A program made the position numbers and the translations under genes. From positions 1 through 43,244 of the forward strand of contig CANRKK010000017.1 of NCBI GenBank assembly GCA_947631195.1: a stretch of DNA of 43,244 bases, written 5' to 3'. Shown piece after piece: positions 2,719-31,343 of the stretch. The first letter of the stretch is position 1, and each line of letters opens with the position of its first letter. Under the pieces are notes generated by a model. That model was given only the letters and a program-made list of their open reading frames with translations. It did no database searches and was not told the DNA's origin. Source of the DNA: an uncultured Clostridia bacterium (GTDB lineage Bacteria > Bacillota > Clostridia > Christensenellales > Borkfalkiaceae).

Positions 2719-5700
2719 ATGGGACTTATAAAATTCATTTTGGGCTCCGACAGCCGCGGCGCCCTCAAAAAACTCGATAAAATGGCCGACAAGGTCGAGG
2801 CTCTCGAACCCAAATACGCCGCCATGACCGACGAACAGCTCAAGGGCCAGACCAAAATTTTTAAGGACAGGCTGGCCGCGGGCGAAACGCTGGACGACAT
2901 TCTCTACGACGCGTTTGCCGCTCTGCGCGAGGCGAGCTGGCGCGTTTTGAAGATGAAGCACTTCCACGTGCAGATAATGGGCGGCATCTGTCTGCATCAG
3001 GGCAGAATCGCCGAGATGAAAACGGGCGAAGGCAAAACGCTCGTCTCCACGCTTCCCGCCTATTTGAACGCGTTGACGGGCAAGGGCGTCCACATCGTAA
3101 CGGTAAACGACTACCTTGCAAAGCGCGACGCCGAGTGGATGGGCAAAGTTCACAAATTTATGGGTCTCACGGTCGGAGTGGTCGTGCCCGGCATGGACGA
3201 CAAAGACAAGCAGCACAGCTACAACTGCGACATAATCTACGCCACCAACAACGAGCTCGGCTTCGACTACTTGAGGGACAATCTCAAAACGTCCATACCC
3301 TCGATGGTGCAGAGGGAGCTGAACTTCTGCATAATCGACGAGGTGGACTCCATCTTGATAGACGAGGCCCGCACCCCGCTTATCATATCGGGCAGGGGGG
3401 GCGAAAGTTCCAAGCTCTATCAGGATGTGGACAGGTTCGTGCGCACCCTTTCGGGCGGCTTTGACGACGACAAAAAGGACGCCGAAAAGAAGGCGCCCTC
3501 CCGTAAGAAAAAAGAGCTGTCCAAGGCCGAGCAGGAGGCGCAGGACCGCCTTGCGCAGATTCTCGAGGATATGGAAAACTGGGACTATATCATCGACCGC
3601 AAGGATAAGTCGGTTACAATCACCGAAAAGGGCGCGGAAAAGGCCGAAAGATTTTTCAATATCAGAAACCTCGGCGACATCGAAAACGCCGATTTGAACC
3701 ACCATATACAGCAGGCGCTCAAGGCGCACGAACTCTTCCACAACGGCGAGGAATACATCGTGTCCCCCGAGGGCGAAATTCTCATCGTGGACGAGTTTAC
3801 GGGCCGTATCCTCAACGGCAGACGTTATTCCGACGGTCTCCATCAGGCGATAGAGGCCAAGGAGCACGTGAAGGTCAAGGAGGAAAACAAGACCCACGCC
3901 ACCGTCACATTCCAGAATTATTTCCGTCTCTACAAAAAGCTGTCGGGCATGACGGGTACCGCCAAGACCGAGGAGGACGAATTCAGAACGATATATTCCC
4001 TCGACGTCGTTCCCATTCCCACCAACCGCCCCGTAAAGCGCGTGGACTATGCCGACATGATCTACTCCACGGTGGAGGGCAAAAAGCGCGCCATAGTAAA
4101 CGAAATAGTTGAGCGCCACGCAAAGGGCCAGCCCATTCTGATAGGTACGGTAACGGTTGACAAGTCAGAGGAAATATCCAGGCTTCTCATACGCAACAAC
4201 ATAAAGCACAATATCTTAAACGCCAAAAACCACGAGCGCGAGGCCGAAATAGTCGCGCAGGCGGGCAGGCTCAACGCCGTAACCATCGCCACCAACATGG
4301 CGGGCCGCGGCACCGATATTCTCTTGGGCGGCAACCCCGAATACCTTGCCAAAAAGCGCATGCGCGAGGAGGGCTACGACCACGACATGATCGAAGTTGC
4401 AATCTCCTACGCCGACCGCGAATTCAACGAGGAGGAGCAGCAGGCGCGCGCCCGCTATGCCGAACTGTACGCAAAGTACAAGGAGGAAACGGACGCAGAA
4501 AAGCAGCAGGTCATCGCCGCGGGCGGTCTGTGCATACTCGGCACCGAACGTCACGAGAGCCGCCGCATAGACAACCAGCTCCGCGGCCGTTCGGGCAGGC
4601 AGGGCGACCCCGGCGACTCCATCTTCTTTATCTCCCTCGAGGACGATTTGGCAAAGCGCTTCGGCGGCGAGAGCATGAAAAAGCTGTACACCGTGTTCAA
4701 GATAGACGAGGACCAGTGCCTGCAATCCAAGATGCTCACCCGCTCGATAGAGAACGCGCAGAGGGCGATAGAGGGCCGCAACTTCGGCATAAGAAAAAAC
4801 ACCCTCCAATACGACGAAGTAATGAACGAACAGCGCAAAACCATCTACGGCGAGCGCATGAAAGTTTTGAAGGGCGAGGACGTGCACGAGCAGATGCTCA
4901 AATACATTCCCGACTATGTCGCAAAGGTTGTCGGGGAGGCGGTCAACACCGAGGAGATGCCCGAAAAGTGGGACGAAAACGTCCTCAACGAGGCCCTCGC
5001 GCAAAAAGTCTATCCCGAGGAGTGTACCTTCGTAATCACCCGCGAAATGCTTGAAAAGTGGGACTACGAGCACGCAATTAACAAGATAAGCAAGGAAGTA
5101 ATCAAGGCCTACGAGCAAAAAATAACCAACATAACCCAAATGACCGAGGGTCAGGTCGACTATCACCAGATAGAGCGCAACGAACTGTTAAGAAGCGTAG
5201 ACAGAAACTGGATCGACCACATCGACGCAATGGACCAGCTCAGAAAGGGCATAGGTCTGCGCGGCTACGCCCAGCAGGACCCCATAATCTCCTACAAAAC
5301 CGAGGGCTACGAGATGTTTGAGGAGATGATAGAGCGCGTCCAGACCACGACTATTTCCCGCCTGTTAAAGGGCAGAATAGTCCGCGTCGCGCCGCAAACG
5401 CCCGTGCCCAAGCAAATAATCCCCACCCCCAAGCGCGAGGGCATAATGCCGATGAACCCTTCGGTCGCCGCCCGCGCGCAGGAGATAATGGACCGCCGCG
5501 TGCAGGAGCGCATGGAACAGGCGCAGGGTCAGGGAGAAACTCCCCAACAGCCCGCGCAGCCCCAACAGCCCGCCGCGCAGCAAACTCCCGCCGCGCCGCA
5601 CAAAGCGGGGCCTTTGGCGGGGCCCGTGATAGGCGACGCGCCGCTGCCCCCGCAGGACCTTGCAACCAACATAGGCGGCAAGGCAATCCCCAAGGTCAAC

Positions 5701-5784
5701 AGCAAAAAGAAGATAGGGCCCAACGATCCCTGCCCGTGCGGGTCGGGGTTGAAATACAAAAAGTGCCACGGCAAGATAGTGTAA
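2719..5784 (+). CDS. secA: Protein translocase ATPase SecA
   Basis: SecA drives preprotein export through SecYEG at the cytoplasmic face of the membrane by ATP hydrolysis. The 1021 residues contain Walker A MKTGEGKT (100-107), the DEVD box (207-210), the second nucleotide-binding fold with ATNMAGRGTDILLGGNPEYL, and the HWF/scaffold region. A Q/P/A-rich linker leads to a C-terminal zinc motif CPCGSGLKYKKCHG for SecB or ribosome contact. A lysine/glutamate-rich insert (DDKKDAEKKAPSRKKK) lies near residue 250. The ATG at 2719 is chosen over an open ATG at 2650 because AGGAG sits 5 nt upstream and the family N-terminus starts there. The order secA then prfB is typical of Firmicutes. A structured repeat starts 2 nt after the stop. 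Confidence 0.97.
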   Translation: MGLIKFILGSDSRGALKKLDKMADKVEALEPKYAAMTDEQLKGQTKIFKDRLAAGETLDDILYDAFAALREASWRVLKMKHFHVQIMGGICLHQGRIAEMKTGEGKTLVSTLPAYLNALTGKGVHIVTVNDYLAKRDAEWMGKVHKFMGLTVGVVVPGMDDKDKQHSYNCDIIYATNNELGFDYLRDNLKTSIPSMVQRELNFCIIDEVDSILIDEARTPLIISGRGGESSKLYQDVDRFVRTLSGGFDDDKKDAEKKAPSRKKKELSKAEQEAQDRLAQILEDMENWDYIIDRKDKSVTITEKGAEKAERFFNIRNLGDIENADLNHHIQQALKAHELFHNGEEYIVSPEGEILIVDEFTGRILNGRRYSDGLHQAIEAKEHVKVKEENKTHATVTFQNYFRLYKKLSGMTGTAKTEEDEFRTIYSLDVVPIPTNRPVKRVDYADMIYSTVEGKKRAIVNEIVERHAKGQPILIGTVTVDKSEEISRLLIRNNIKHNILNAKNHEREAEIVAQAGRLNAVTIATNMAGRGTDILLGGNPEYLAKKRMREEGYDHDMIEVAISYADREFNEEEQQARARYAELYAKYKEETDAEKQQVIAAGGLCILGTERHESRRIDNQLRGRSGRQGDPGDSIFFISLEDDLAKRFGGESMKKLYTVFKIDEDQCLQSKMLTRSIENAQRAIEGRNFGIRKNTLQYDEVMNEQRKTIYGERMKVLKGEDVHEQMLKYIPDYVAKVVGEAVNTEEMPEKWDENVLNEALAQKVYPEECTFVITREMLEKWDYEHAINKISKEVIKAYEQKITNITQMTEGQVDYHQIERNELLRSVDRNWIDHIDAMDQLRKGIGLRGYAQQDPIISYKTEGYEMFEEMIERVQTTTISRLLKGRIVRVAPQTPVPKQIIPTPKREGIMPMNPSVAARAQEIMDRRVQERMEQAQGQGETPQQPAQPQQPAAQQTPAAPHKAGPLAGPVIGDAPLPPQDLATNIGGKAIPKVNSKKKIGPNDPCPCGSGLKYKKCHGKIV

Positions 5785-5786
5785 AA

Positions 5787-5995
5787 GGTTCACAAAAATT
5801 TTCGTGCGGTTGCGCGCCCTCAAATTTTTCGTGAGTTTGGGCGGCTCTGCCGCCCTTGCCGCCATTTTTAGGGCGCACATATTATATAATGGCGGCAATT
5901 CCCACCGCTCAGGCGCAAGTGTGCGCAAATTGTGTCGTGCCGGCGCAGGGAAACCCTGCTTGCACCATAAATTATTTAAATTGTACGCGGCAATC
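5787..5995 (+). ncRNA. Candidate structured RNA element E, copy 1
   Basis: This roughly 200-nt element has a second copy at 30905-31095. Helices seen: P1 5790-5801 with 5822-5834 (12 bp, single bulged C5830), capped by 5804-5808/5813-5817; P2 5839-5845/5849-5855; P3 5856-5866/5888-5898 (11 bp, directly stacked on P2); P4 5913-5917/5922-5926; P5 5945-5950/5954-5959 inside 5937-5940/5962-5965. P2 and P3 differ in sequence from copy 2 yet pair perfectly in both. The P3 loop (AGGGCGCACATATTATAT) and P4-P5 are almost invariant. One G-U pair in the P1 cap favours a plus-strand RNA. It starts 2 nt after the secA stop. No known RNA family was recognised; a transposable palindrome is the main alternative. 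Confidence 0.5.
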
Positions 5996-5999
5996 CAAC

Positions 6000-6144
6000 C
6001 CTTGCCCTCTTCCGTGTAACGGGGGAGGGTGCCCTGAAAGGGCAGGTGGGAGAAACGCAATACATATAATTATTTTTGGGCGAACCGAGCGTTACAACCT
6101 CAACTTTCGTTAGCCATTCATTCCGCTGAGCGCTACAAACCGTT
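6000..6144 (+). repeat. Composite repeat D-F, copy 1
   Basis: Repeat D (6000-6052, CCTTGCCCTCTTCCG... with the hairpin GCCCT-GAA-AGGGC) is joined by an AT-rich link to repeat F (6073-6144, TTTTTGGGCGAA...GCGTTACAACC...CGTTAGCC). The same D-F composite is at 30751-30896, with only a few differences over 145 bp. D alone is at 6206-6258, 8615-8667 and 8996-9048; F alone is at 24302-24365. Confidence 0.8.
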
Positions 6145-6721
6145 TCAGCAAACAGGCGGCGGGCGCGCTTGCAACATTATTATTTAAAAAAATAACAACC
6201 CTCAACCTTGCCCTCTTCCGTGTAACGGGGGAGGGTGCCCTGAAAGGGCAGGTGGGAGTAGCCACCTTTCTCGTCATTCCGCGCGAGGGACCTTTCCTTC
6301 TCTTGTCATTCTGAGGAGGGCACAGCCCGACGAAGAATCTGTCGCGCAGCGACTTTCTAAAATAATATCACCGCCAATTAAGACTTGTCATTCCGCGCGA
6401 GGGCTTTGCCCGATGTTCTCACACGGCGTAAGGACAACGCCGTGTTCGGGCACCGTTCGCGCGGGACGAATGCGCTCACTCATCTCGCGCAGCAAAACAG
6501 CGCACTGTGCTGTTTTGAGAAATCTGCGCTCGTCCCCCAGTGGACTGCTTTTGGTGCGTTAAAAACGCACACAAAGCCGTCGCTGCGCTCGGGCGGGGCC
6601 TGATAACACGGTTCTCCTCATCTCCACCGCGGCTTCTTCCCCTTGGGGGGGGAAGCTCACGCGTAGCGGGTGATGGGAGGGGGATTGTCATAAAATTTAT
6701 TTTATCTCCGCAACAAAAAAA
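6145..6721. repeat. Repeat island between secA and prfB
   Basis: No credible gene is seen. The stretch holds repeat D (6206-6258), repeat H (6304-6381, GTCATTCTGAGGAGGG then CGACGAAGAATCTGTCGC), a short C-type repeat (6385-6415), element B (6416-6535) and an A-like repeat (about 6620-6690, ending GGGGGATTGTCA). Open frames here, such as those starting at 6385 and 6540, run through repeat sequence and are not convincing. Confidence 0.7.
6416..6535 (+). repeat. MITE-like element B, copy 1
   Basis: A 120-bp element starting TTCTCACACGGCGT and ending TGAGAAATCTGCGCTCGTCC. It has a 5' hairpin CACGGCGT/ACGCCGTG, a 3' hairpin CAAAACAGC/GCTGTTTTG, and short TTCTCA...TGAGAA inverted ends. Other copies: 8434-8574 (with a 21-bp extra hairpin), 31171-31291 and 15721-15841 (reverse). 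Confidence 0.75.
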
Positions 6722-7973: not shown

Positions 7974-8433
7974 GCGCACCGCCAACTTCGTGATTTCAGC
8001 TCCCGCCAACGGGTGATAAACGGCGCATAGCGGTGTCAAGCTCCGCGCCGCCTAAGTCACGTACGTCAATGTACGCTCCTGTCGTCGGTGCTCGCTTTCC
8101 TTGCTCTGCTTGTTTCTAACCCGTTGCCAACTTCGTAAATACAGTTTTCCTTGGCTCCCCGTAGTAGGGGGAGCTGTCACCGATAGGTGACTGAGGGGAT
8201 TGTCACATTAAATTCAACAGATATAATAATTTTACTTTTCTATTTTGTCCCGCCCACCCCCCCAATATTGTTAGCAAAGTTCACAAAAATCTCGCGCGTG
8301 AGCGAAGCGCACCCCCCCTCTGTCATTCTGAGGAGGGCGCAGCCCGACGAAGAATCTGTCGCTCAGCGACTTTTTAAAATAATATCACCGCCAATTACTC
8401 CGTGTCATTCCGAGCGTGAGCGAAGCTCGAGAG

Positions 8434-30682: not shown

Positions 30683-30904
30683 AAAATATCACCGCAACTT
30701 AAACTCTGTCGCGCAGCGACTTCTAAAATTTGCCCGCGGCACCCCCAAAACCTTGCCCTCTTCCGTGTCAACGGGGGAGGGTGCCCTGAAAGGGCGGGTG
30801 GGAGAAGCGCAATACATATATTTATTTTTGGGCGAAACGAGCGTTACAACCTCAACTTTCGTTAGCCATACATTCCGCTGAGCGCTACAAACCGTTCCAA
30901 AAAA
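30683..30904 (+). repeat. Repeats after the ATP-grasp gene, with D-F composite copy 2
   Basis: A short H-type fragment (30690-30735, CTGTCGCGCAGCGAC) is followed by the D-F composite at 30751-30896, nearly identical to 6000-6144. No gene is seen. Confidence 0.8.
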
Positions 30905-31095
30905 GGTTCACAAAAATCTCGCGCCATTGCGGGCGCTGCGATTTTTCGTGATTTGAGGGCTACTCGCCCTCTGTCTGCGATTTATAAGGGCGCACATATT
31001 ATATAATCGCAGACATTCACCCCGCTCAGGCGCAAGTGTGCGCAAATCGTGTCGTGCCGGCGCAGGGAAACCCTGCTTGCACCATATATTATTTT
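30905..31095 (+). ncRNA. Candidate structured RNA element E, copy 2
   Basis: The second copy of the element at 5787-5995. P1 30908-30918 with 30940-30951 (11 bp, the same bulged C at 30947), capped by GCGCC/GGCGC (30921-30925/30932-30936); P2 GAGGGC/GCCCTC (30955-30960/30966-30971); P3 30972-30982/31005-31015 (11 bp); P4 31030-31034/31039-31043; P5 31062-31067/31071-31076 within 31054-31057/31079-31082. Relative to copy 1, P3 has four pairs changed on both sides and P2 has several, with no loss of pairing. It lies directly after the D-F composite, whereas copy 1 lies directly before one. Confidence 0.5.
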
Positions 31096-31343
31096 AAATA
31101 AGTACCCCACCCATTAAAGCTTGTCATTTCGAACGATATGAGACCCACGCAGTGGGCGATTGAGTGAGAGTTCTCACACGGCGTAAGGACAACGCCGTGT
31201 TCGGGCACCGTGCGCGCCTTGCACTATGCGCGCACTCATCTCGCGCAGCAAAACAGCGCACTGTGCTGTTTTGAGAAATCTGCGCTCGTCCCCCCGTGGC
31301 TGCTCTTGGCTGTTTGAAACGCCGCCTCAAACTAATTCGGCCT
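31096..31343 (+). repeat. C-type repeat holding element B copy 3
   Basis: A C-type repeat (from about 31119, CTTGTCATTTCGAACGATATG...GATTGAGTGAGAG) is split by element B (31171-31291) and resumes as CCCCCGTGGCTGC. The related unsplit repeat is at 8900-8990. No gene is seen. Confidence 0.75.
31171..31291 (+). repeat. MITE-like element B, copy 3
   Basis: 121 bp, TTCTCACACGGCGT to GCGCTCGTCC. Its middle forms a perfect 8-bp stem GTGCGCGC/GCGCGCAC. It is the closest relative of the reverse copy at 15721-15841. Confidence 0.8.

Follow-up and report, generated by a model that had tools for sequence, protein, structure and literature searches.

Two segments of a 43,244-nucleotide stretch of DNA from an uncultured Clostridia bacterium (the window) share a series of five hairpins, P1 to P5, while differing in the letters of some stems. 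The question raised by these two copies of what is called here element E is at which level, RNA or DNA, such a fold is used. The original prediction left three options: an RNA with a regulatory or catalytic role, a mobile element's guide or end RNA, and folded single-stranded DNA used in transposition. The reading favoured below, to which we give an even chance of being right, is that of an interspersed DNA element, non-coding and non-autonomous, that works as a folded single DNA strand.

Extent, fold and distribution of element E

E starts with TTCAC and an end hairpin, P1, carrying a bulged C. It continues with P2, P3, a linker 3' of P3 (J34), P4, CAAAT with a short linker, P5, and an AT-rich tail. 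Both window copies lie on the + strand. In copy 1 (5789-5980, from TTCAC through the tail), P1 extends over 5790-5834 with its bulged C at 5830, P2 over 5839-5855 (arms 5839-5845 and 5849-5855), P3 over 5856-5898 (arms 5856-5866 and 5888-5898, with a conserved loop), and P4, delineated by pairing over the copies and by the DNA fold, over 5913-5926. P5 (5937-5965) comprises an outer part (5937-5940/5962-5965) and an inner part (5945-5950/5954-5959), the latter being the one tested for covariation, and the tail occupies 5966-5980. The proposed third strand within J34, CCACC at 5902-5906, is parallel to P2 bases 5840-5844. Copy 2 (30907-31097) has P1 at 30908-30951 (bulged C at 30947), P2 at 30955-30971 (arms 30955-30960 and 30966-30971), P3 at 30972-31015 (arms 30972-30982 and 31005-31015), the proposed third strand ACCCC at 31019-31023, P4 at 31030-31043, and P5 at 31054-31082 (outer part 31054-31057/31079-31082; inner part 31062-31067/31071-31076, again the one tested). 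The two sites are those first reported, with their limits moved from 5787-5995 and 30905-31095 to the better ends given here.

The earlier description of the copies also holds in its details. The P3 arms (TTGCCGCCATT/AATGGCGGCAA versus TGTCTGCGATT/AATCGCAGACA) are altered on both sides at four positions, the P2 arms change from GGGCGGC/GCCGCCC in copy 1 to GAGGGC/GCCCTC in copy 2, the P3 loop AGGGCGCACATATTATAT is identical, and the lone bulged C of P1 is common to both, a C occupying that column in 83 of 86 aligned copies. The near-invariance ascribed to the 3' half applies to the two window copies; family-wide, P4 and P5 exist in several compensated versions. With DNA parameters, the minimum-energy fold of both copies consists of P1-P5, with five extra pairs inside the P3 loop of copy 2. 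It is stable beyond shuffled sequence, the z value for single-stranded DNA being -3.3 for copy 1 and -5.1 for copy 2, equalled by none of 200 shuffles in either case. With RNA parameters, z is -1.9 (copy 1, equalled by 9 of 200 shuffles) and -4.2 (copy 2, by none of 200), and the minimum contains P1-P4, the inner P5 and further long-range pairs, with a different outer P5 in copy 2.

E belongs to a repeat family. BLAST finds 54 matches of copy 1 in the 2.34 Mb assembly of its own genome, and matches in 24 of the 151 genomes of the window's bacterial family (own genome included). From the 46 copies extracted in the own genome, 26 were aligned and 20 left out because of nested repeats, truncation or a deviating boundary pattern, while 153 nhmmer matches in relatives provided 60 distinct near-full copies. 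These 86 copies form alignment A2, from which covariance model R1 was built; it scores 194.7 bits over 5789-5979 and 185.3 bits over 30907-31096. R1 detects E in 49 of the 151 genomes, distributed over 5 of 18 genera (own genome included), up to 17 candidates being scored per genome, so that copy numbers per genome are "at least" values. In an order-wide sample, E is present in 11 of 200 genomes (own genome included), all within the same bacterial family. Its bearers among the relatives are uncultured Clostridia, including Candidatus Coproplasma. Several paired versions of each helix coexist within one genome, copies combine these versions in mosaic fashion, and some of them are chimeric.

As first supposed, E fits no known RNA family: the window has no Rfam match at the gathering threshold, and a search of 5600-6300 at E<=10 returns only DicF (17.9 bits, threshold 48) and HOXB13-AS1_2 (11.4 bits, threshold 40). 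No published description of the family was found in the open PMC literature. A phage or plasmid origin was rejected, as 50,697 phage and 72,556 plasmid records gave nothing matching E; three viral contigs matching a 19-base pattern were discarded too, having no nhmmer hit and only 16-bit partial model hits.

The aligned copies argue strongly that P1-P5 are under pairing constraint. Over the 37 pairs of the five helices in A2, 96.9% of the stem cells of the alignment are paired, versus 80.2% when the 3' letters are shuffled, a control that ignores relatedness of the copies, and 36.9-45.3% when partners are slid, a control that keeps it. Double-sided changes affect 28 of the 37 pairs (18.3 in shuffled data) and 513 cells (143.6 shuffled), and the covariation score reaches 0.431 (0.128 shuffled). 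Of the five measures, only the count of further pair types fails to stand out (50 versus 46.7 shuffled, with 42 of 500 shuffles reaching 50). P2 pair 65-81 is unpaired in 39 of the 86 copies, and some copies are broken, such as L002:1301-1492, in which the P3 arms come from two versions. The expectation that changes in P2 and P3 would prove compensatory in more copies is nevertheless borne out, substitutions preserving pairing far more often than disrupting it across the 86 copies.

Parallel covariation of P2 and J34

J34 tracks the 5' arm of P2 base by base and in the same direction, as in the P2/J34 combinations AGCGG/ACACC, AGAGG/ACTCC, AGGAG/ACCTC, AGAAA/ACTTC and GGGAA/CCCTC. In 2180 tests for association between a helix pair and an unpaired column, the highest MI (0.91; next 0.59) belongs to P2 pair 68-78 and J34 column 133, and P2 pair 66-80 with J34 column 131 comes fourth. 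When J34 is permuted over the 31 A2 haplotypes, x3 and x2-x4 each reach p<=0.0002, and x4 taken singly 0.059. Copies beyond A2 were obtained from 24 of 26 and 21 of 25 matches (45 together); removal of six A2 duplicates left 39 rows, 38 of them usable. These 38 copies (20 haplotypes) yield p<=0.0006 (x3), 0.03 (x4) and <=0.0002 (x2-x4), and the 15 haplotypes absent from A2 yield 0.0054, 0.094 and 0.0006, respectively; relatedness is left out of account in all these permutations, and most of the further copies belong to the window's own genus. Parallel register 0 is the best of 17 registers, in A2 as in the further copies, under each rule tried, with register -1 and one antiparallel register also standing above shuffles (z 3.5 and 3.1). 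In genus g10 (36 matches, of which 21 displayed and 19 in the P2/J34 comparison, one of them, L302, being also an A2 copy), a longer P2, AGGGGAAAC, is paired with a longer J34, mostly ACCC[CT]TTCC, and the short P2 AGGGC goes with J34 ACCCG. These patterns provide good support for a contact between P2 and J34. A contact between the P1 and P3 loops was also considered and set aside, as its MI hits look clade-bound.

Covariation in a parallel register is taken here as the signature of an intrastrand triplex, and the geometry appears compatible with one, since J34 exits at the base of P3 and P3 abuts P2. We infer that P2 and J34 may form a short triplex of ~5 positions in the window's genus and up to ~8 in g10, which would best fit the - strand as a purine motif made of G.G-C, A.A-T and T.A-T triples. 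On the + strand, a pyrimidine third strand (T.A-T, C.G-C) accounts for 127 of 230 cells, while on the - strand a purine third strand antiparallel to the purine arm accounts for 161 of 230 (z 5.9) and leaves 69 misfits; the latter rule, being wider, also admits more chance matches (126.1 cells expected from shuffles), and the 230 cells include, as haplotypes, 6 copies also in A2. The - strand rule accommodates A facing A, which is frequent (34 of 76 cells). Exceptions are A opposite C (20 of 76), G opposite T (24 of 135) and C opposite A (8 of 17), and the short-P2 class often has T opposite G. The available text of PMC4666352 argues for bacterial intrastrand triplexes from motif counts, biophysics and footprinting, and states that those of class II may contain C-G-G, T-A-A and T-A-T triplets, a composition that the putative third strand of the E - strand would share. 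A third strand changing in step with its hairpin would add evolutionary evidence that such a triplex is used.

The same data bear on the reading of E as a passive repeat, terminator- or cruciform-like, spread through recombination or by a past transposase, with stems perfected by hairpin-templated repair and a P2/J34 match that is an inherited haplotype effect. P1 is built as an A-tract/stem/T-tract hairpin, and a terminator scan finds terminator-like sites on both strands in the P1 of copy 2 and none in that of copy 1. The mosaic versions and chimeric copies, and the results of the transposase searches given below (Y1 absent from the own assembly, PF07282 in 0 of 10 genomes over cut-off), would suit it as well, and templated repair would also give few G-U pairs. 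Such repair, however, yields antiparallel complements, whereas the J34 match is parallel; J34 follows P2 in the 15 haplotypes outside A2, and in length in g10; and the bulged C is retained, unrepaired, in 83 of 86 copies. A passive repeat is considered conceivable but rather doubtful.

DNA-level or RNA-level constraint

RNA helices pass through G-U as a half-way step between pairs. In the E helices of A2, G-U occurs 12 times and A-C 30 times among 3178 cells, versus 271 and 24 among 3187 cells of RNase P RNA from 28 genomes of the window's genus (28 of 29 matches), a control that is less diverged than E (mean identity 0.83 versus 0.70) and whose pairs were taken from RNAalifold, those of E being named by hand. 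When covarying pairs are chosen by one rule for both sets, G-U makes up 10 of 2404 in E, versus 86 of 1259 in RNase P. In the E copies outside A2, 13 G-U and 16 A-C are counted among 1432 cells. RNAalifold's own structure of E contains 4.3-4.5% G-U, which is attributed to the stems that it adds in J34, J45 and P5; these extra stems were rejected, having no consistent covariation on inspection. On the + strand, A-C is commoner than G-U (46 versus 25; binomial p 0.017, relatedness ignored), which would equal an excess of G-T on the - strand. The near-absence of G-U in E, unlike in RNase P, makes the constraint look DNA-level rather than RNA-level, a conclusion with good support from these sequences. 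Counting G-U against an RNA control from the same genomes offers a simple discriminator between the two.

The regulatory or catalytic RNA of the original prediction is disfavoured by this comparison. In its fuller form, this alternative holds that E is a structured RNA (a 3'-UTR, a processed non-coding RNA or a ribozyme), that P1-P5 and the P2/J34 base triples form in the transcript, and that E spreads as a useful RNA. RNA base triples of the T.A-T and C.G-C kinds exist and are on record, and the pair covariation is strong. The gene context, based on greedy ORF calls rather than curated genes, is also partly in its favour. Of the 46 copies in the own genome (40 with a called upstream ORF), 12 have their P1 end at -2 to 5 nt relative to a stop codon on the same strand. 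In relatives, where 70 copies were placed, the P1 end is 1-6 nt past such a stop in 18 of the 39 same-strand copies, a further copy overlapping its ORF call by 13. Yet 31 of these 70 copies are antisense to the adjoining gene, G-U is not commoner than A-C, contrary to RNase P of the same genus, and nothing exceeds an Rfam threshold. Overall, a structured RNA is judged unlikely.

Genomic sites, probable mobility and known systems

In relatives, 19 of 54 copies have a called ORF no more than 10 nt from the P1 end, and 2 of 52 have one as close to the 3' end; some copies, by eye, start shortly ahead of the ribosome site of a gene on the opposite strand. E is flanked on its left by A/T-rich sequence, with a TAA beginning 7-8 nt upstream in 40 of 146 copies, and position -1 is a G in 64%. 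Target duplications, which together with exact ends and a lack of expression had been proposed as the mark of a plain palindromic repeat, were not found in the 79 of 86 copies compared (mean common substring 4.09 versus 4.00 shuffled, 46 of 200 shuffles being as high), and in this E is unlike a classical DDE MITE. The analysis yielded no clean empty site retaining both flanks. Downstream of secA, surveyed at 30 loci of the 58 genomes with a secA match, an element starting with P1 is present in 5 loci (own included): L146 and L154 have E, L157 has E interrupted by an insert, and L165 and L167 have shorter kinds, a stub being present in a further locus (L174). Copies vary in position in this way, which speaks for mobility. 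Some sites look inherited, such as those of L086 and L121, which have the same two neighbours. Tandem copies begin a few bases past the preceding tail, and many g10 copies form inverted dimers joined at their tails, whose AT stretches touch or overlap (L299, L300, L301, L302, L309, L310, L338). Versions in genus g9 retain P1 and P4-P5 with another middle or none, which designates these ends as the common part; minimal relatives of 105-109 nt consist of P1, P4 and P5 only (L277 268-372, L291 279-386, L293 551-659). A strand bias following GC skew was discarded (27 positive and 15 negative of 70).

The search for a propagating enzyme covered several families. Y1 transposases match in 53 of the 151 family genomes and in 7 of 16 congeners carrying E; the own assembly has none (the control rang in 5 of 14), and E is absent from 20 Y1 loci of relatives, 20 of those found. 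Y2 (IS91) transposases give 0 of 10 genomes, with no control genome ringing either. The 25 most recurrent ORF families beside the copies include, on inspection, none that is transposase-like. PF07282 (TnpB-type) matches none of 10 E-bearing genomes over cut-off, one of them matching below it (20.6 of 26.3 bits), with a control that rang in 6 of 14; the profile may not cover every IscB. E resembles the guide or end RNAs of TnpB/IscB-type elements in its ~190 nt size and multi-hairpin layout, but such an identity is very improbable given this lack of a PF07282 partner over cut-off in all 10 genomes and of anything over an Rfam threshold. The own genome also contains two RVT_1 reverse transcriptases (L176 1288-2379 and L177 1180-2466), likely of the diversity-generating-retroelement type, and spread by reverse transcriptase was rejected, E not being found in these two loci.

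Of the options first listed, a mobile element acting as folded single-stranded DNA agrees best with the data, the absence of a Y1 transposase from the own assembly counting against it. In such an element, a trans-acting single-strand-specific enzyme would recognise the fold of E, mainly its P1 and P4-P5 ends, which are the parts common even to versions devoid of P2-P3, and would set E beside A/T-rich sites, for example a TAA stop codon or another E's tail. This single-stranded route is suggested by the constraint on a folded strand, the bulged end hairpin, the absence of duplications, and analogy with IS200/IS605 and REP elements as presented in the available part of PMC8266576.

Several known systems resemble this scheme. 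In the available text of PMC8266576 and PMC3733652, REP/BIME/REPIN are extragenic, high-copy hairpin DNA, often arrayed; a REP is a single hairpin of 20-40 bp with a GTAG or CGTC tag, and TnpA-REP (RAYT) reads the REP bulge or mismatch on single-stranded DNA. E is likewise extragenic, high-copy and arrayed, with a bulge in its hairpin DNA. It differs by its ~190 nt and five hairpins, by having no conserved GTAG/CGTC-type tag by eye, and by the relation to Y1 genes described above (none in the own assembly, no E at 20 loci of relatives). BOX of Streptococcus pneumoniae is an intergenic repeat assembled from modules, those at the ends being constant and the middle variable (PMC3049150, available text). 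The g9 relatives of E, which drop or replace P2-P3 while keeping P1 and P4-P5, are similar, whereas sequence and layout differ and the available text on BOX does not mention a triplex. E is probably a mobile, REP/BOX-like element with a candidate covarying intrastrand triplex.

Integron attC sites are folded single-stranded DNA recognised through shape and unpaired bases. The same is described for the IS200/IS605 ends of IS608 and ISDra2 in the available part of PMC8266576. Unlike both, E has five hairpins and no transposase or integrase linked to it here. Bacterial intrastrand triplexes (ITxF, class II C-G-G; TM-ECO) combine a hairpin and a tethered third strand on one DNA strand, and were searched for as three consecutive blocks with stems of 6-15 nt and loops of 1-6 nt (PMC4666352, available text). 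The hairpin P2 and the tethered J34, with triples fitting the - strand, would make E similar to class II. In contrast, a whole P3 hairpin separates P2 from J34, in place of three consecutive blocks, and the stem of ~5 positions (~8 in g10) covaries across copies. Tentatively, and as a joint proposal that we hold to be possible rather than probable, E might found a class of propagated single-stranded DNA elements placed by an enzyme flush with gene ends and carrying a selected intrastrand triplex, of which coordinated base-triple changes across genera would be the demonstration.

Other repeats surround E. One (CTTGCCCTCTTCCGTG..GGGGGAGGGTGCCCTGAAAGGGC..GGTGGGAG) has several copies nearby, at ~6000-6055, 6205-6255 and 30752-30806 of the window. 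A third repeat (GGGCGAA..GAGCGTTACAACCTCAAC..CCGCTGAGCGCTACAAACCGTT) occurs at ~6077-6145 and 30831-30895, and in the own genome E often begins just past its end. A 19-nt stretch at 8279-8297 is identical to the 5' end of copy 2. Finally, other repeats are nested within E copies at the P1, P2 or P5 hairpins (L023, L033, L028, L025, L009 and others).
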